From NCBI GenBank assembly GCA_019285755.1, contig CP079103.1, positions 806,001 through 870,000 on the forward strand: a stretch of 64,000 bases of DNA, written 5' to 3'. A model generated the notes under the pieces. It saw only the letters and a program-made list of their open reading frames with translations. It did not search any database and was not told where the DNA came from. How positions within the stretch are numbered: the stretch's first letter is position 1; every line of letters begins with the position of its first letter. This document shows, piece by piece, positions 32,915 through 45,086 of this stretch. Origin of the DNA: Chitinophaga sp. E66. GTDB taxonomy: Bacteria > Bacteroidota > Bacteroidia > Chitinophagales > Chitinophagaceae. The translations under genes and the position numbers were made by a program.

Positions 32915-35900
32915 TTATTGCTTGATGATTTTTTTAGTGATGACGCCATGTTTGCTGAGGAATTGTAAGAAGTACATACCTGGCGGCATGTGGGTCAGGT
33001 CCAGCCGTACTGTTTCTCCGCCGAGCGCCTTCCTGGTGTGCATCAGGGTGCCGGTAATGTCGGTCAGGCGCAGTTCTATTGGTCTTTTCCTTCGCCGTTC
33101 AGCGTTACGTTCACATAGGATCCGGTCGGGTTCGGGAACACTTTGATGTTGGCGTGTTCACCGTTTGCTTCCTCGATGCCGGTGATAACGTTCTGCCCGG
33201 GGAGGGTAGCCGGATAGACGAGCTTCTTGGCGCCATTGTACCCGATAGCAAACACTGCGGTTGCGGTGTCGGGGAACTGCACTTTCGTGAAGGTTCTGTC
33301 TGCGCTGCCGGTGCCAAAAATTGCGACATCCAGGAGCGTATCGTTTTTATATGTTTCGAAGGCCACTGCATGCTGCCATTCATCCGCGTCTACCGTTAAC
33401 TCGTTGCTGTTGAGGCTGACGCCTACGCCGGCTGAACCGGTAACCGCCTGCCGCAGGCGATAGGTATTTACGCTGTTGGCGGAGATGTAGTTGATGACGG
33501 GAGATGCGGGAGCGGGGTAGTTTTTGGCTTTGATGGCGGCTATGGTGGCATCTATCTCCTGTTGCGTGATAGTGATCAGTGCGGAGGAGTAGTCTGTCAC
33601 CACTTCATTGATCGGTACCAGCAGGCCGGCTTTAACGAAGAAGTCTGTAAGGTCTTCTTTCACCACATCGCAGATGTTGACAACACAATTGAGGATGAGC
33701 TGTTTGTCTGACAGGCCGCTTTCATTGGTGGTGCGTACTTTCTCCAGCATGTCTCCCAGCCAGTAGGCCACATCGGGCTGGTTGCCCCGGGCGCCGGTGT
33801 GCCGGACAGCCGTTGTTGAAGGGTAGGGAGGTTTTTGCTGGCGCCTGCTGCCTGGTAGTAGAGTTGCAGCTGCCAGAAGAGGATCAGCCTTTTGAAGACA
33901 TCGGATTCGTCATGATAGGGCGTTTGTTGATCAGGCCGTACCATATACCGGCATTGATGCGCCCGCCGATAAGATCCGGGCGTACGTCGTCTACCGAAAT
34001 GCTTTCCTGCTCCAGGCGGGTAAATCCGGGATAGGAGGTGCCCATGGTGTATTCGCACCAGGCAGAATAGAGGTTGTTGGTAACCTCCGTGGTACCGGTC
34101 CATTTGAACCCGGGACGCACCTGGTTAACGTGACCGAACTCATGCGCCACGCCCCAGGGATTAACGAAAACTCCTTGTTCGTTTGCCAGTCCGGGTTCGC
34201 CCCAGGTGAGATCGAAATGCGCGCCCCATCCGCCGGCGAACCATCCGCCTTTGTATTCTGAATAAGTGAACATGTGATTTTTTGGGACCCGGTTATATTT
34301 AAACAACCCCATCAGAATGAACTGGTTCTTTACGATCGAATCATACGCGGCGATCAGGCCCTTGCCGGATGCGGCTGAATTGTTCAACAGCGCGGCTTTG
34401 TGGTAAGCCATGTTCACGTATTTGCCTTTGATGTCCAGGCTCGGGTAGATCTGGTTGGTCAGGTAGTTGAACCAGTCTGTATCCGTATCCGTCAATGGAT
34501 CGTAATACCCGTTGACGCGGCCGCTGGCGATGTGGATCCTGATGTTGGGAAGTGAGGCATTGTCATTATAATAGCTGATGTAAGCCAGGCCGGCCGTAGT
34601 GATATCGATCACGTTCAGGCCTTCCTTCAGGGCGTAGCTCTGGTCGGTGATCGAGGTGGGTGACCCGAAGTCGGTTACCCGAAGGGAGGGCGTAACGCCG
34701 CCGGTGGGTCCTACAAAGATCACGGCTTTGTCGTTGGCTTTAAATGCGATACCGGTGGGGTTCTCGAAAGAGTTATAGCCGGAAGTCTTCAGCGCGGCTG
34801 CGGTAGTGCTTACGAGCGGGTAAACCTGGTAAGACTGGTAACGGAACTTCTTGTCGTACGTCTGGTTGAAGAGGCATTGTGCCAGCGATTTAAAGAAAGG
34901 CATGGAGATGGTATCGATCCTTGCCTGGGTTACGCCTGGTTTCAGTACGGTGTAAAGGCTGTCGAATATACCGCTGTATATATTGGCGGCGGCGGTGTTC
35001 TTCGTGAAGAATTCCATTTCCGCGCAGGGCAGCAAAGTTATTCCCGCCGTTGAGTACTTTGATGATGACGGCGCGGACGTTCACCAGTGGCGTCGTCAGC
35101 TCGATGCGGCTGGGAGAGCCGCTATAGCCGAGGTCGGCATCTTTTGCCTTAATGGGTGTGCCATTGGGCGTGGTTTTATACCACACTTCTATGTTCCCGA
35201 AATTACCGTTGATGTTGCCATCCAGCCGGGGAGTGTACACGATGTAGTCGATTTTATTGTTTCCCTGGAAATTGTAGGTCATCTCGATCGGAAACCGCCG
35301 CCGGCCCAGGAGGAATGGTATAAGGTCGACTTGTCGTTATCCAGCGTTTTGTCGATCCCTTCACCGGCGCTGTTGGCGGCCGGAGATACGGAGGCGTTGT
35401 TGGCCGTCAGCTTCTTATCCAGCAGGCTGGCAAGTCCCGATGTCGGGTTGGAGCAGTCTACGGGTATTACGGTGGGTGTGGAAGACCAGAAGATCATTTC
35501 ATTACAGCTGGAGAAATTGCCTGTGGCCTGGGACACGACGAAGCGTACGCAGGCGGGGGTATCTATTCCGTTTGCGGCTACGTTTACGATCTTGGTGGTG
35601 TTGTCGTTCGCCCAGTTGAGGTCTGCTACTTTCACGAAAGGTCCGTTGGTTTTGCGGGCCCATAGCGCTACGGTCCGCCAGACGCCGTTCAGTCCGCTGG
35701 ATCTGGGGACGTACTCGATCTTGTTGATGTTGTTGACGCCATTGAAGTAGAAATCCACTGTGTCGGGGATGGCGTTGAGGTTCCAGTCGGAATGGTATCC
35801 GGTGGCGAGGTCGCCGTCATAGCATTTGCTGAGCTCTGCGCCCGGTTGCGCGGGCCTCGGGAGACTGCGTAAATAGGGGCGGCCTGGTATTGGGCAGACG

Positions 35901-35949
35901 CAATGCTGCTGCATACCATACCCAATAAAAGAGTAGTGATGTATTTCAT
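32915..35949 (-). CDS. Secreted M60-family metallopeptidase with two discoidin-like domains and a T9SS sorting domain
   Basis: About 1010 residues. Signal peptide (MKYITTLLLGMVCSSIASAQ), two discoidin/F5-8-like modules (SKCYDGDLATGYHSDWN...VDFYFNGVNNINKIEYVPR; IDKTLDNDKSTLYHSSW...KIDYIVYTPR), then an enhancin-like M60 catalytic domain with the zinc motif HEFGHVNQ and a downstream Glu in TTEVTNNLYSAW. The C-terminus (IKVFPNPTGSYVNVTLNGE...GMYFLQF) is a type IX secretion sorting domain, so the protein is exported or surface-attached. M60 enzymes cut glycosylated mucin-type proteins. Frame breaks near 35850, 35288, 35030, 33910, 33785 and 33078. It stands alone; the glycan cluster is 20 kb away. 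Confidence 0.88.
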
Positions 35950-36003: not shown

Positions 36004-36148
36004 CGGTTCACTGGTTTCGGGTAACACTGTAAAATATACTGGGGAAATCTCCTGAGGTGGTAATATCTTATCAATACACGCGGTTTTTCTTCAATTGGGT
36101 TCTCCAGAAAACTTCTTATCAAATATATAATAATATCTCAGGTTTTAA

Positions 36149-36178
36149 AATGGACGATCTTCCGTAAGATCGTCCATT
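36149..36178 (-). terminator. Terminator of the ImmA/IrrE operon
   Basis: Stem AATGGACGATCTT / AAGATCGTCCATT (13 bp) with a four-base loop and a T-run on the minus side. It touches the stop codon of the gene ending at 36178. Confidence 0.85.
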
Positions 36179-36747
36179 TACGCATCTTCGCTTAGCTTTC
36201 GCATAGCATTAGCAAAGTTTTGGGTTGTTGAATCATATACTTCATGACCATAACCATGCTTTTCATTTAATTCATATAGCATTTTGTAAAGAGTAAATGG
36301 ATTTTGGCTTTCGGAAACCCACTTAACGATTAAGTCTAGCATTTCGTTCATGACAGGTTGGAATGTCATTCTGCTATCACTTCCGCGGACGCCATTTCCA
36401 TCACTTTTCTTTTTTCCAAGATTTAGAAAGACGAGTTTTTCGTCGTAAATGATTCGTCTTGCTTCTTCAAATTCTTTGCCTTTGGGGAGGTTTTTCAAAA
36501 GTATGTTTTGGATACCTTTGTAGTAAATTTGCCATTTTTGTTCTGGATCTTCGAATGATTTACCTAAAGTTTGCCTTAATTCGTCAATTTCTTCCAGTCC
36601 GCCGCCGGATAGGTCCAGGCGTAATTGTTTTCCCTTAATTTCAGAAGCACGACGTAGTAGCTCCATTCGCTCCGCATTGACATCTGGTTGGACATCAGTT
36701 CCTTTTTTAGCCTGTTGTTCAGGTTGTTTGAAATCTTCGTCTGCCAT
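36178..36747 (-). CDS. Unknown protein, partner of the XRE-ImmA/IrrE peptidase
   Basis: Intact 189-residue protein, cytoplasmic by composition. The N-terminal 30 residues are polar and Lys/Gln-rich, a helical middle follows (EIDELRQTLGKSFEDPEQKWQIYYKGIQNILL), then a basic loop (NLGKKKSDGNGVRGSDSRM) and a C-terminal helical segment (MLDLIVKWVSESQNPFTLYKMLYELNEKHGYGHEVY). I recognise no family. It starts three bases after the stop of the ImmA/IrrE gene, so both are one operon. The sequence is clearly more AT-rich than the neighbours, which points to horizontal transfer. It may be a toxin, an effector or a substrate of the peptidase; none of these is shown. Confidence 0.75.
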   Translation of the reverse strand: MADEDFKQPEQQAKKGTDVQPDVNAERMELLRRASEIKGKQLRLDLSGGGLEEIDELRQTLGKSFEDPEQKWQIYYKGIQNILLKNLPKGKEFEEARRIIYDEKLVFLNLGKKKSDGNGVRGSDSRMTFQPVMNEMLDLIVKWVSESQNPFTLYKMLYELNEKHGYGHEVYDSTTQNFANAMRKLSEDA

Positions 36748-36750
36748 AGT

Positions 36751-37955
36751 TTATGAATTTAGTTCAAAGGTTCTTTTGAGGTTGTTTGCGATTTCCGAAA
36801 TGCTCGTTTCTTTCCAGGTGATAGCGTTCAATTTGCTCAATGCGTCTGTGCTTTTGGGGATTTCGGTGCTAAATGCGCGCCAGTAGTCAAGATTATAAAT
36901 TTTATGTTGATAGAATTGATATGCGTTGTAAATCATGGCCGGGTGAACCTGAAGTTGCGATGCAAATCTCTTTACAACCACCGGATTATGAATATGTGGT
37001 TTGATGTATTGAAATTGTGGTTCGTCGCAGAAGTAGTCCATCATGAATTTGTTAGCGTCATCTTCAATTAGTAGCAGGTCCGGCTGACCATCATCGGTCA
37101 GGTGGATCCTGGTTTTTTCAATAACATCAAAATCAAAAATGGCATGGTGTAGCTCATGCATGAGAGTTGTCCAGATGGTGGGATAGCGTTTGCCAAGATC
37201 AGTCAAAATAATGCAAGGTTTGCCATTAACCAAAAAGGTCCCACCCTGATTTGAGTGGTCGGCAGATGTCCTTGCGCTATTACGGTTACCCCGCAATCGT
37301 ATAGTGCGCGACAAACAGTGAGGAGTCCATTTTCGACATCAGTAGTGTATGGTTTGGCTTTAGCTATGATATCCTTTACTCCTTCTCTATCAAATTCGTT
37401 CGGGTTATTGATGTTTTGGAATACGCGATAAGCGGCGTCAATCCAAAATTTCTTCATTTTATCAGTAAAAAGCCGTTTGGTCCGTTTACTATATAATGGT
37501 TCATCGAACGCCTGTTCGAAAGCAGTAATACTTTCAAATTGGAAGAAGGTAAGCAAACGTGAGATAATGGTATTAAGGTCGGCCTTTTTCTCAAGGAACC
37601 CCAGCGTTTCCAATCTTTTCAGATCGAAATGCTTGATTAGAAAAGTTGCTTTGCGGGCGCGGTCAAGAGACGTTATATTTTCGACATTTTGGTCTCTTAA
37701 AACTGCCGCAACAAGTTCTTGTAACTCAATATCAAGAAACTCTGCAAGTTTTACGATATGAATAAGGTTTGGTTGTTTTGCCGTTCCTGATAGTATCTCC
37801 TCGAAAACATCTTTATCAATGGCTAGTAATTCCAGTGCTTTAGATTTTGATATCCCATATTCAATGATCTTCAAATCAAAGATTTCGCGGGCGCTGTTCC
37901 CCTTAGGTTCCTGAAACGACTTATTTAATAAATCTTCTATTTGAAATTGAGCCAT
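36751..37955 (-). CDS. XRE-type HTH fused to an ImmA/IrrE (COG2856) metallopeptidase
   Basis: About 401 residues in one frame after a break near 37244. The N-terminal 90 residues hold a HTH-like segment (GISKSKALELLAIDKDVFEEILSGTAKQPNLIHIVKLAEFLDI). The C-terminal half is a zinc peptidase domain with the motif HELHHAIFDF (HExxH) and a helix that would supply the third ligand (EDDANKFMMDYFC). Such proteins often cleave a repressor or act as the antitoxin or regulator side of stress modules. Two similar palindromes lie upstream, fitting autorepression. AT-rich, adjacent to a tRNA: likely acquired. Start ATG 37953-37955. Confidence 0.85.
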
Positions 37956-37958
37956 ATG

Positions 37959-37972
37959 AGGGTGATTACCCT
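37959..37972. promoter_or_regulatory. Operator copy 1 of the ImmA/IrrE operon (AGGGTGATTACCCT)
   Basis: AGGGT-GATT-ACCCT inverted repeat starting four bases upstream of the start codon. It matches operator copy 2 at 38013 in the core GGGTnATTACCC. Confidence 0.65.
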
Positions 37973-38012
37973 ACAATATTACACCTTTTTATTTAGGTGA
38001 ATTAATTATTAG

Positions 38013-38024
38013 GGGTAATTACCC
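38013..38024. promoter_or_regulatory. Operator copy 2 of the ImmA/IrrE operon (GGGTAATTACCC)
   Basis: Perfect 12-bp palindrome 53 bases (five helical turns) centre to centre from operator copy 1, with AT-rich promoter sequence between them. The two copies would let a dimeric XRE protein loop or cooperate. Confidence 0.65.
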
Positions 38025-38189
38025 TTTAAATTTAAAATTGAAAACAGAGGAGGTTAATTCCAGAATGGAATCTGTTGCCAGTCGGGAGCTGGGCTTGAAA
38101 ACAATAATCGGCTGAGAGGAGATTATATTGCTGGAAGGAAGTTGACTTTATAGGGTTAGGCTTTGATGTGGCAGTTCTTCGCTAGCATA

Positions 38190-38316
38190 AACAAAAAGCC
38201 TCGTCGCAATGACGAGGCTTGTAGTGCGAGAGCTGGCGGATTCGAACTGAGGACAGTTTTCCACCATGCGAATATTATCAACAAAAAGCCTCGTCGCAAT
38301 GACGAGGCTTGTAGTG
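38190..38316 (-). repeat. tRNA-Val 3'-end plus terminator repeats, locus A
   Basis: Downstream (left) of tRNA-Val copy A come a terminator hairpin (38286-38310, arms AAGCCTCGTC / GACGAGGCTT), then a spacer, a diverged copy of the tRNA-Val 3' end (38228-38247, core GAGCTGGCGGATTCGAAC) and a second copy of the same hairpin (38196-38220), 90 bases from the first. The stretch 37973-38189 between operator 1 and this array holds operator 2 and otherwise no recognisable gene. Confidence 0.85.
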
Positions 38317-38391
38317 TGGGAGCTGGCGGATTCGAACCGTCGACCCTCTGCTTGTAAGGCAGATGCTCTGAACCAGCTGAGCTAAGCTCCC
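38317..38391 (-). tRNA. tRNA-Val (anticodon TAC), copy A
   Basis: 75 bases. Acceptor GGGAGCT pairs with AGCTCCC, anticodon loop CTTACAA gives anticodon TAC (valine), T-loop TTCGAAT. No CCA is encoded (3' end is A followed by CAC). The T-stem reads GACGG / CCGCC, leaving one A-C mismatch. Identical to copy B at 42765. The same 3' end recurs in repeat units downstream. Confidence 0.95.
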
Positions 38392-42103: not shown

Positions 42104-42540
42104 GAAAAATGATTTTTGCGTTCATATAAATTTACGGAACAGCTGCCGGATAAGATGCAAGCGCCTCAAAATGATGACATTTGTCAAAAAATTAGGGGAC
42201 AGGAAATTTTTTCAGAATCAGCCGAAAGACAGGCCTGCTTTCATTTTAGTATAGGAATCAATCAAATATTTCAGCTATGAAACAAACTAGAAAAGCACCT
42301 CGTAAACAGAAGTCTGAAGGAAAAAGAATGAATGGAAGCCGATAGGTTCACACCCACCGATTATCTTAAATAACATTACGATGAAGAGCCGCCAGATAAC
42401 CGAAGCATACGGCTTATCTTTCCGCGGTGCAACTGACCGGGCGCCTGTTTACCTGGTGCCGTAAATAAAGAAATAGATATTGAGATGGGGATTGCTGCCC
42501 GGAGGGCATAAAAAAGCCCCGCAAATTGCGAGGCTTTTGA
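42104..42540. other. Non-coding stretch with two tiny open frames
   Basis: No established gene. Two short plus-strand frames are visible: 42277-42345 (22 codons, very basic, MKQTRKAPRKQKSEGKR) and 42381-42464 (27 codons, MKSRQITEAYGLSFRG). Neither has a clear promoter; either may be chance. A hairpin (42511-42538) closes the stretch at the start of the tRNA-Val repeat array. Confidence 0.35.
42277..42345 (+). CDS. Possible 22-residue basic peptide
   Basis: Open frame starting MKQTRKAPRKQKSEGKR; over a third of its residues are Lys or Arg. Such a composition resembles small ribosome-associated or nucleic-acid-binding peptides, but the frame is short and lacks supporting signals. Confidence 0.25.
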   Translation: MKQTRKAPRKQKSEGKRMNGSR

Positions 42541-42764
42541 GAGTGGGAGCTGGCGGATTCGAACCGTCGACCGAATCAGCTTGCCGAGGCAGTTCTCGGC
42601 CATGCGAATATTATAAACAAAAAGCCTCGTCGCAATGACGAGGCTTTTGAGAGTGGGAGCTGGCGGATTCGAACCGTCGACCGAATCAGCTTGCCGAGGC
42701 AGTTCTCGGCCATGCGAATATTATAAACAAAAAGCCTCGTCGCAATGACGAGGCTTTTTGAGAG
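42541..42764 (-). repeat. tRNA-Val 3'-end plus terminator tandem repeats, locus B (period 110 bp)
   Basis: Two near-identical 110-bp units start at 42541 and 42651. Each carries the 3' end of tRNA-Val (acceptor, T-arm and adjoining bases), a spacer with the hairpin GCCGAG...CTCGGC, and the terminator AAAAGCCTCGTC / GACGAGGCTTTT (42620-42648 and 42730-42758). A third copy of the start word lies in the functional tRNA (from 42762). Locus A has diverged versions of the same elements with a 90-bp spacing. Confidence 0.9.
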
Positions 42765-42930: not shown

Positions 42931-44209
42931 TTAGCGCAGTTCCCAATCCACGATTTTATTGCTCCATTCCTGGCGGAAAGGCGTGGTGATCTTGATGTAA
43001 TTGTCGGTGTACCCTTCCATCATACCGTCTTTCCCGTGCGATTCGAAAAGCACCGTGCGCGTTTGTCCCAGGTGCTGCTCGGTGAAGTACGACATTTTCT
43101 TGTGGCTCAGGTTGCGAAGGGCCTTGTTGCGTTCCTGGCGCACGGATACCGGCACCACCGGCTGGATGGTCAGCGCATGGGTGTTATCGCGCTCGCTATA
43201 GGTGAACACGTGCAGGTAGGATACATCCAGGCTGTGGAGGAAGTCGTAGGTTTCGCGGAAGTGCGCGTCGCTTTCGGAAGGGAAGCCCACGATCACGTCT
43301 ACGCCGATGGCGCAATGCGGCATCTTTTCCTGATGCGGGCTACCTTGTCGGCATACAGCTCGCGGCGGTAGCGGCGGCGCATCAGCGCCAGGATGTCGTT
43401 GCTGCCGCCCTGCAGGGGAATATGGAAATGGGGCATGAACTTCTTGCTGGCGGCCACGAAATCGATGATCTCGTCGGTCAGCAGGTTAGGCTCGATGCTG
43501 GAAATACGGTACCGTTCGATGCCTTCGATGGCGTCTAATTGCCGGATGAGGTCGAAGAAGGATTCTTCCCGGCGTTTGCCGCCTTCGAAGCCTTTGCCGA
43601 AATCGCCCAGGTTTACCCCGGTGAGCACGATCTCCTTTACGCCGTTGGCGGCCAGTTCGCGGGCATTTTGCAGAACGCCTTCGATGGAGTCGCTACGGCT
43701 GATACCGCGGGCCATGGGGATGGTGCAGAAGGAGCAGGTATAATCGCAGCCGTCCTGTACCTTCAGGAAGGTACGGGTACGGTCGTTGATGGAATAGCTG
43801 GAATGGAAGGTATTGACGTCTTCAATGTCGCAGGAGCAGACTTTGGCGCCGCCGTCGCCCTTGGTGAGCTCGCGGATGTGGTCGGCGATGTTGAATTTCT
43901 CGGCGGCCCCAGTACCAGGTCTACCCCGGGTATCTCGGCGATCTCTTTGGGTTTGAGCTGGGCGTAGCAGCCGGTGATGACTACCATGCTGCCGGGGGCG
44001 CGGCGCTGGATGCGGCGCACGATCTGCCGGCATTCCTTGTCGGCATTGTCGGTCACGGAACAGGTGTTGATCACGTATACGTCCGCCGTGTCGTCAAATT
44101 CTTTCCGCACAAACCCGTCCTTCTCCAGCGCCCGCCCGATGGTGGAGGTCTCTGAGAAGTTCAGCTTGCAACCTAGCGTGTGAAATGCCACTGATTTTGT
44201 ACCTGTCAT
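42931..44209 (-). CDS. mtaB: tRNA threonylcarbamoyladenosine methylthiotransferase MtaB
   Basis: About 428 residues. Radical-SAM methylthiotransferase that adds a methylthio group at C2 of the t6A at position 37 in tRNAs. N-terminal UPF0004 domain (SVAFHTLGCKLNFSETSTI, NTCSVTDNADKECRQIVRR, VVITGCYAQLKP), radical-SAM cluster CDYTCSFCTIP (CxxxCxxC), and a C-terminal TRAM domain (HLGQTRTVLFESHGKDGMMEGYTDNYIKI). Frame breaks near 43905 and 43320. The promoter -7 element ends only nine bases before the ATG, suggesting an almost leaderless transcript. Confidence 0.93.
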
Positions 44210-44217
44210 AAGGATGG

Positions 44218-44225
44218 CAAAGGTA
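44218..44225 (-). promoter_or_regulatory. Bacteroidota -7 element of mtaB (TACCTTTG on minus)
   Basis: CAAAGGTA on plus, exact TAnnTTTG on minus. It ends nine bases before the mtaB ATG, implying a leader of only a few bases. Confidence 0.55.
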
Positions 44226-44323
44226 CGATTTCCGGGCGTTTTTCCGTTATTGATATGGTAAAAGAGCGATATGTGTGCCCCGGCCTTGAAAAGCTCCCCG
44301 GGATACAGTAACTTGCCGGTTTT

Positions 44324-45086
44324 ATGCGTGTAATCTCGAAAGTTCTGAAGGGCATCTATGTTGTGTACGCCGGGATCGTCTGGCTGGCCATCATGCTCGT
44401 GATCCTGCTGCCCATCGTGGCGGTTTCTTTCCTGGGCAAAGTCAGGGGCGGCAACCTGGTGTTCTATTTCCTGCGGTTCTGGGCGCACGTCTGGTTCCCC
44501 GCCGTGGGTATTTTCGTGTCGCGGAAATGGAAGACCCCCGAACCAAGGAGCCCTGTATTTACATCGCCAACCACGCCAGCTACCTGGATGCGGCCCTCGC
44601 CGTGAAGGTAATGCCCCTCCCGTTCCGCCCCCTCGGTAAAAGCGAGCTCTCCAAAGTACCCTGTTCGGCATGATCTACAGCCGTTCCGTGGTGCCTGTAG
44701 ACCGCTCCAGCGCCCGCGGCCGGGTACAGTCGGTGCGCGATATGATGTTCATGCTCCAGCATAAAGTGAGCCTGCTCATCTTCCCCGAAGGCACCACCAA
44801 CAACTCCGGCCAGCCATTGCTGCCCTTCCACCAGGGCGCTTTCCGCATCGCGATAGAAACGCAGACCGATATCCGGCCCGTGCTGTATGTCGACTGCCGC
44901 GCCCGCCTCCAGGAGCTCAACCCCATGAGCCTCAACCCCGGCAAATGCCGCGTGGTGTTCCCGGAAGCCGTTCCCGTAAAAGGAATGACCATTGAAGACG
45001 TGCCCGCCCTCCGTCAGAAAGTATACGATATGATGGACGCCGAGCTCCGCAAATACAGATCGTTCCCGGCGCTCCAGCCCGCATGA
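44324..45086 (+). CDS. plsC: 1-acyl-sn-glycerol-3-phosphate acyltransferase
   Basis: About 255 residues. It adds the second acyl chain in phosphatidic acid synthesis at the inner membrane. One N-terminal helix pair (VVYAGIVWLAIMLVILLPIVAVSFLG) precedes the acyltransferase domain with the catalytic motif NHASYLD (HX4D), FGMIYSRSVVPVDRSSARG and the FPEGTTNNSG substrate motif. Frame breaks near 44530 and 44655. The stop overlaps the priA start by four bases (ATGA), so both are co-translated. Confidence 0.92.

Follow-up and report, generated by a model that had tools for sequence, protein, structure and literature searches.

What is the small AT-rich operon that Chitinophaga sp. E66 carries at positions 36,149-38,030 of a 64,000-nucleotide stretch of its genome (GenBank assembly GCA_019285755.1, contig CP079103.1, positions 806,001 to 870,000; hereafter the window), and is it a system that has not been described before? 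A first-pass annotation of this DNA had proposed that a helix-turn-helix (HTH)-zinc peptidase fusion and an unfamiliar partner may form an undescribed module under twin operators. We found a mobile, conserved and sporadically distributed operon, in which an XRE-ImmA/IrrE regulator of the M78 type (gene 1) precedes a small protein; the distribution, the conserved protease motif and the lack of a known family for the partner are well supported by the sequence comparisons, and so are the paired operators, which suggest autoregulation. The partner family, its replacement by P63C-type proteins and the conserved operator pair are, to our knowledge, new, whereas gene 1 is of a kind already described, as PADLOC model PD-Lambda-2_B and, in the passages cited here, as Xre-COG2856 fusions (PMC2701414). 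As to function, we tentatively favor, with a probability of about 0.4, an autoregulated, protease-switched toxin-antitoxin-like module, probably serving a phage or stress response.

The gene pair and its partner family

On the minus strand, operator O1 (38,013-38,024) and operator O2 (37,960-37,971) are followed by gene 1 (37,955 to 36,751) and the partner gene (36,747 to 36,178). The stop codon of gene 1 ends at 36,751 and the partner ATG stands at 36,747, leaving 3 bases in between; open reading frames (ORFs) and family scans agreed with the annotation of a 189-aa second gene that begins three bases later and has no recognized family. The AT-richness was also borne out, as the unit has a G+C content of 0.394 against 0.535 for the whole window, and only 8 of 1243 equal-length sliding windows, those overlapping the unit counted in, were at or below its value plus 0.005. 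The annotated fusion held for the relatives and not for the window itself, where gene 1 is not one ORF and is split over two frames, with the break between 37,203 and 37,314. According to the ORFs and family scans, the first part (37,203-37,955, minus strand; a 250-aa ORF, frame-broken at its end) contains the N-terminal XRE HTH, a middle helical domain and the start of the M78 domain. The second part (36,751-37,314, minus strand; a 187-aa ORF in the other frame, homologous from residue 23) is an ImmA/IrrE (M78-like) peptidase, and the HELHH zinc-binding motif was placed at 37,144-37,158 of the same strand by counting from the sequence and the ORF list. In all 15 first-fetched relatives, gene 1 is whole and fused (396-414 aa), and residues 1-241 of the first part showed 48-61% identity to these intact proteins. 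The HExxH motif was kept in 64 of 64 alignment rows and in 120 of 120 database relatives. When gene 1 of three relatives (loci are given as L and a number) was compared with PF06114, L022 scored 23.6 bits (cut-off 22), L001 14.6 bits, and L026 gave no match; the same domain is precomputed for some database relatives. The best structural match of the M78-type domain was CapP. The loop that joins the HTH/middle part to the protease part was unusually conserved and falls in a low-confidence region of the predicted model, making it a concrete candidate for a cleavage site.

The genome is a single contig of 6.29 Mb with a completeness score of 65%. ORFs of at least 400 aa occurred at 0.94 per 10 kb in the window; the density was 1.56 across three stretches from a second genome of this genus, and 2.4-3.0 at three loci of Niastella (two) and Pseudoflavitalea (one). 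Because of this low completeness, and because long ORFs are rarer than in relatives, an assembly error seems a more likely origin of the break than decay. The share of bases in ORFs of at least 250 aa (0.39) was no worse than at the same-genus locus L041 (0.38). By eye, several neighboring genes also seemed to be split over frames, for example at 33,076-35,949 and 42,931-44,671, and such split neighbors, together with the scarce long ORFs, fit an assembly with many small frame errors.

The partner was not found alone in relatives, an outcome that the first-pass annotation had named as one that would refute its reading. In 26 of 28 relative loci, gene 1 immediately preceded the partner in the same orientation; contig ends truncate the remaining two, with only the tail of gene 1 left in L047 and the sequence of L052 broken off inside the partner. 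The gap between the genes was -17 to +22 bp in 24 loci; the listed gaps of 174 (L005) and 116 bp (L012) are too long, the ORF caller having chosen a late partner start. Diverged partners were also found behind gene 1 in the plasmid loci L054, L119 and L120 (62, 57 and 64 bits), and a weaker one in L116 (26 bits). The operon was scattered across Bacteroidota and green sulfur bacteria, partly on plasmids. The partner family was present in 2 of 99 relatives, the own genome included (both among the 60 from the same genus), in 12 of the 395 genomes sampled from the phylum, in 3 of 395 from the class and in 7 of 86 from one distant family, the larger of these searches having scored only the best few candidates per genome. 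Among viral contigs, 99 pattern matches were obtained, none confirmed as a relative, and the phage collection gave distant gene-1 cousins only (3 records). The distances of gene 1 and partner correlated with r 0.92 over 30 loci, a value expected for co-inherited neighbors and not taken as a sign of binding. Very similar three-gene cassettes (gene 1, partner and KAP/PDC-S49) were seen in a Flavobacteriaceae metagenome-assembled genome and in Moheibacter (L009 and L010), and their similarity suggests recent horizontal transfer.

The partner family comprised 328 proteins at E 0.001 among 5.8 billion, the window protein included. None of the 120 relatives listed carried a Pfam domain with the window protein as query, nor did any of the 120 listed among 170 matches when a distant member was used. 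The window partner gave no significant family match, none of the PADLOC models hit it or the partners of the relatives scanned, and Pfam matches were weak and scattered when 132 members were scanned singly. Over these 132 diverse partners, 11 positions were invariant (E26, P68, Y76, L87, E103, K104, G119, R121, D124, R126 and N161, window numbering). AlphaFold2 predicted an all-helical core and a disordered N-terminus, with a mean predicted local distance difference test (pLDDT) score of 79 and ten-residue blocks at 90 or above from residue 71 to 180. An assignment to P63C, prompted by the annotation of a Hymenobacter plasmid protein beside a gene-1 homologue, was rejected, that protein being an unrelated partner type. 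The P63C model PF10546 did not match the window partner at E 1 and was absent from the families shown for the 132 members (25 of 29), and hhalign of the partner against P63C partners returned a probability of 0.6%, i.e., no detectable kinship. Among the papers listed by our literature searches, none described this gene pair in its title or the start of its abstract.

Paired operators and the putative promoter

The twin palindromes of the first-pass annotation were recovered by pattern search: O1, GGGTAATTACCC, is a perfect palindrome 53 bp from O2, GGGTGATTACCC, which stands 4 bp from the start codon of gene 1. The operator pattern gave 3 matches in the window, one site being counted on both strands, versus a shuffle mean of 0.00. 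In the whole 6.29-Mb genome, the looser GGGTNATNACCC was found at 4 sites, 2 of them at this locus, versus 2 for the reversed control pattern. A wider regulon was unsupported for the strict operator, given two other genomic sites and a control pattern with as many. Because 2 of just 4 genomic sites sit here, autoregulation without a large regulon is inferred.

The operators of relatives were then searched in the 160 bp upstream of gene 1 as two similar 14-bp palindromes 30-100 bp apart, in 31 loci with this partner (the window, 26 of the main set and 4 plasmid loci); in L002, L012, L041, L043 and L048, a gene 1 start codon later than that of the ORF caller was used. The best pair was 52 bp apart in 21 loci and 53 bp apart in 3, so that the spacing recurred in 24 of the 31, and relaxed inspection found a 52-bp pair in L010 and L042 as well. 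In shuffle controls, no more than 4 of 100 shuffles reached the score for 23 of these 24, and 12 of 100 did so for the remaining one, L002. The operator sequence varied by lineage along with the HTH, in counts uncorrected for relatedness: GGGTAATTACCC-like sites paired with HTH DKDVF in 14 of 16 relatives (DKHVF in L002 and DKDTL in L013), AGGTAAATTTACCT sites with I[QE][RK][RK]SL in 6 loci, the CTGGAAAGTTCCAG site with DIRTFDD in L011, and the TTGAAATTTTTCAA site with DYNTLKR in L046. This covariation makes the regulatory half of the operon directly testable.

TAnnTTTG, the -7 promoter element of Bacteroidota, adjoined O2 in 15 of 28 loci tested. In the window, the putative promoter octamer TAATATTG (37,974-37,981, minus strand), found by pattern search, has one mismatch to this consensus and adjoins O2. 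O2 thus placed probably covers the transcription start, and O1 probably lies upstream of the promoter.

Related regulators and known systems

A tree of 47 chosen gene-1 proteins was built from 30 with this partner, 6 with P63C and 11 HigB- or Beta-linked; it included just 10 HigB-linked cousins and omitted L117 (gene 1 broken) and L121 (gene 1 broken or cut at the record end). Regulators with a small downstream partner were separated from the HigB-/Beta-linked ones by a branch with support of 100/100. The regulators of P63C proteins formed one clade (100/99) whose place within the small-partner group was unsettled, and L057 and L059 sat on long branches, their placement being unsure. A P63C-type protein stood in the place of the partner in seven loci, of which one was called by a Pfam match here, four by record annotation (together L055, L114, L115, L117 and L118), and L094 and L095 by alignment to these. 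The regulator thus keeps its place while the partner is exchanged. Among seven P63C-type loci tested, three (L094, L115 and L118) showed palindrome pairs 63-64 bp apart. On the Hymenobacter qilianensis plasmid (L117:3935-5133), gene 1 was divided between two ORFs and followed by an intact P63C partner. A survey of 198 genomes of the order gave three long P63C proteins (305-331 aa; L061, L062 and L063), and all three were encoded beside a transposase-like gene, which we take from its appearance to be of the IS1595 type.

The cousins differ in what lies upstream: 9 of 10 of these proteins matched a HigB/RelE-type Pfam model at E 0.01, 3 of them above the cut-off, and that of L060 matched none. 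A profile of 14 upstream HigB-like proteins, which does match the HigB-linked cousins, hit no ORF at E 1, neither in the window nor at any locus carrying this partner or P63C; by this search, no HigB toxin gene of a HigBA system is present in the window or beside this partner. Beta_protein was seen in cousin L059 only, among the proteins scanned; the window partner did not match it at E 1 (Pfam and PADLOC), and it was missing from the 25 of 29 families listed for the 132 members. In Achromobacter phage CF418P1 (L060:2663-4590), a HigB-like small ORF without a Pfam match of its own is followed by an XRE-M78 gene and by a third, unrelated gene of 161 aa without a Pfam match.

By kind, the operon belongs with the Xre-COG2856, PD-lambda-2 and RosmerTA systems, judging from domain architecture. 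In the passages of the papers cited here, PD-lambda-2 consists of a HigB-like A, an Xre-peptidase B and a P4-antitoxin-related C, with B toxic alone and rescued by A, and C needed for defence (Vassallo 2022, PMC9519451). From the wording "P4 phage antitoxin", component C would correspond to the Beta_protein family. Gene 1 has the architecture of B: PADLOC PD-Lambda-2_B scored 69.8, 80.3 and 59.6 bits in three of three intact relatives, and both gene-1 fragments of the window matched it. Because neither A nor the presumed C was found, and an unrelated small helical partner lies downstream instead, the operon is not a PD-lambda-2 system. RosmerTA combines ImmA-domain antitoxins (RmrA) with diverse toxins (RmrT), according to the cited passages (Ernits 2023, PMC10440598). 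It resembles this operon in its ImmA-domain HTH protein and exchangeable small partners, and the operon may belong to it; no PADLOC model fits the partner here, and RmrA models matched gene 1 weakly in L022 (23.5 bits, E 5.6e-6) and not at 0.01 in L001 and L026. For Xre-COG2856 fusions, many with RelE or PIN toxins, the cited part of Makarova 2009 (PMC2701414) predicts a protease-controlled three-component system; the fused Xre and Zn-peptidase, the toxin-antitoxin-like operon and the mobility are shared, yet the partner here matches neither RelE nor PIN, the partners named there. In CapH/CapP, ImmR/ImmA and DdrO/IrrE, HTH repression is likewise coupled to an M78-type protease, with repressor and protease separate, whereas here they form one polypeptide with a partner added. 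We know of no such partner in those pairs.

Defence setting, rival explanations and locus surroundings

A defence-type setting was supported: up to 5 nearest genes around 28 loci (132 proteins) matched 110 PADLOC families at 1e-12, versus 11 families for 122 control proteins from 12 other stretches of 8 genomes, fewer genomes than the 28 loci represent. Restriction enzymes of types II, IIG and III are among the 25 families shown, as are PDC-S49, AbiEi and SoFic, a composition suggestive of a defence-rich setting.

In the toxin-antitoxin-like module favored here, the XRE domain of an intact gene 1 protein would, on strong indications, bind the two promoter-flanking operators and repress the operon, and the same protein would restrain the small helical partner. 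Single-stranded DNA, phage infection or a similar trigger may activate the M78 protease, in analogy to CapP and IrrE/PprI; the cited part of PMC10904395 reports activation of IrrE/PprI by single-stranded DNA and states the same for CapP. The activated protease might, speculatively, cut a target, perhaps its own conserved inter-domain loop, which would lift repression and free the partner. The freed partner could then be an effector that slows or stops the cell, although it could be a sensor or inhibitor instead. A wider version is rather doubtful: a class of proteolytic immune switches with an XRE-M78 sensor-repressor, two operators five helical turns apart, a self-cutting inter-domain loop and exchangeable small effectors, either all-helical or P63C, the latter with the wider operator spacing noted above in 3 of 7 loci. 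If true, neither effector family would have been linked to phage defence before, within the reach of our searches.

Several observations weigh against the favored module. No family model names the partner. In the operator search, L116, L119 and L120 had no pair, L054 had one clear palindrome, and the L009 pair, spaced 53 bp, was weak and scored equal to an unrelated one. The PADLOC figures count families and not proteins, so that one restriction gene can match many models, and they are inflated by neighbors common to L049-L051 and to L009 and L010. Gene 1 is broken beside an intact partner in the window and, with a P63C partner, in L117; if these breaks are genuine, the cell could hardly tolerate a toxic partner. 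The XRE-peptidase of PD-lambda-2 is itself toxic alone in the cited passages (PMC9519451), which by analogy would reverse the polarity. Such a reversal, in which XRE-M78 would be a harmful activated protease and the partner an inhibitor or sensor whose loss on infection frees it, seems rather unlikely; it would fit the broken genes, and also partners that vary by clade beside a constant regulator. However, PD-lambda-2A is HigB-like and nothing of the sort was found in the window or in the partner and P63C loci, and ImmA-type proteins act as antitoxins in RosmerTA, as described in the cited passages (PMC10440598).

An unlikely alternative is a toxin-free regulatory switch, in which gene 1 senses damage, the partner tunes the protease, and the output is genes behind the pair or elsewhere, as in CapH/CapP-controlled cyclic oligonucleotide-based antiphage signaling (CBASS). 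It would accord with the CapP-like M78 domain and with the defence-type genes behind some pairs, namely KAP/PDC-S49 directly behind in L009 and L010 (gap 22), AbiH in L012 (gap 10, short ORF) and a SIR2_2 match below the Pfam cut-off in L002 (gap 9), yet in 20 of 28 loci no ORF on the same strand followed the pair within 40 bp (in two of these, little or no sequence remains there), and with so few other operator sites a lone pair would control itself alone. A regulatory remnant or selfish addiction module without a defence role, decaying in this genome, is quite improbable: the frame break and the patchy, partly plasmid-borne distribution agree with it, whereas relatives have both proteins and the operators intact, with conservation across families, and the low completeness with scarce long ORFs points to assembly error. 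The operon adds a conserved partner family to the HTH-ImmA/IrrE proteins, with the regulator staying put while the partner is exchanged, and the conserved loop gives this class of loci a candidate cleavage site.

In Pontibacter actiniarum, a RES toxin and an Xre/MbcA antitoxin lie just upstream of the pair (L054:2744-3782), forming a second, tandem toxin-antitoxin system. In the window, an inverted repeat across the partner stop codon (36,148-36,179), seen by eye and unflagged by the repeat scan, is a possible terminator. The tRNA noted by the first-pass annotation is a tRNA-Val at 38,316-38,391, about 360 bp from the start codon of gene 1. Its position looks incidental, and tRNA-linked integration was rejected as a general feature, no tRNA being found in any of 32 relative loci searched (2-18.6 kb each). 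Partial copies of the tRNA-Val 3' end with the terminator hairpin occur at 38,187-38,254 and 42,524-42,743, beside both tRNA-Val genes, and may mark past integrations or slippage; an 18-base tRNA stretch was present in 5 copies, the 2 genes included, versus 0 expected.
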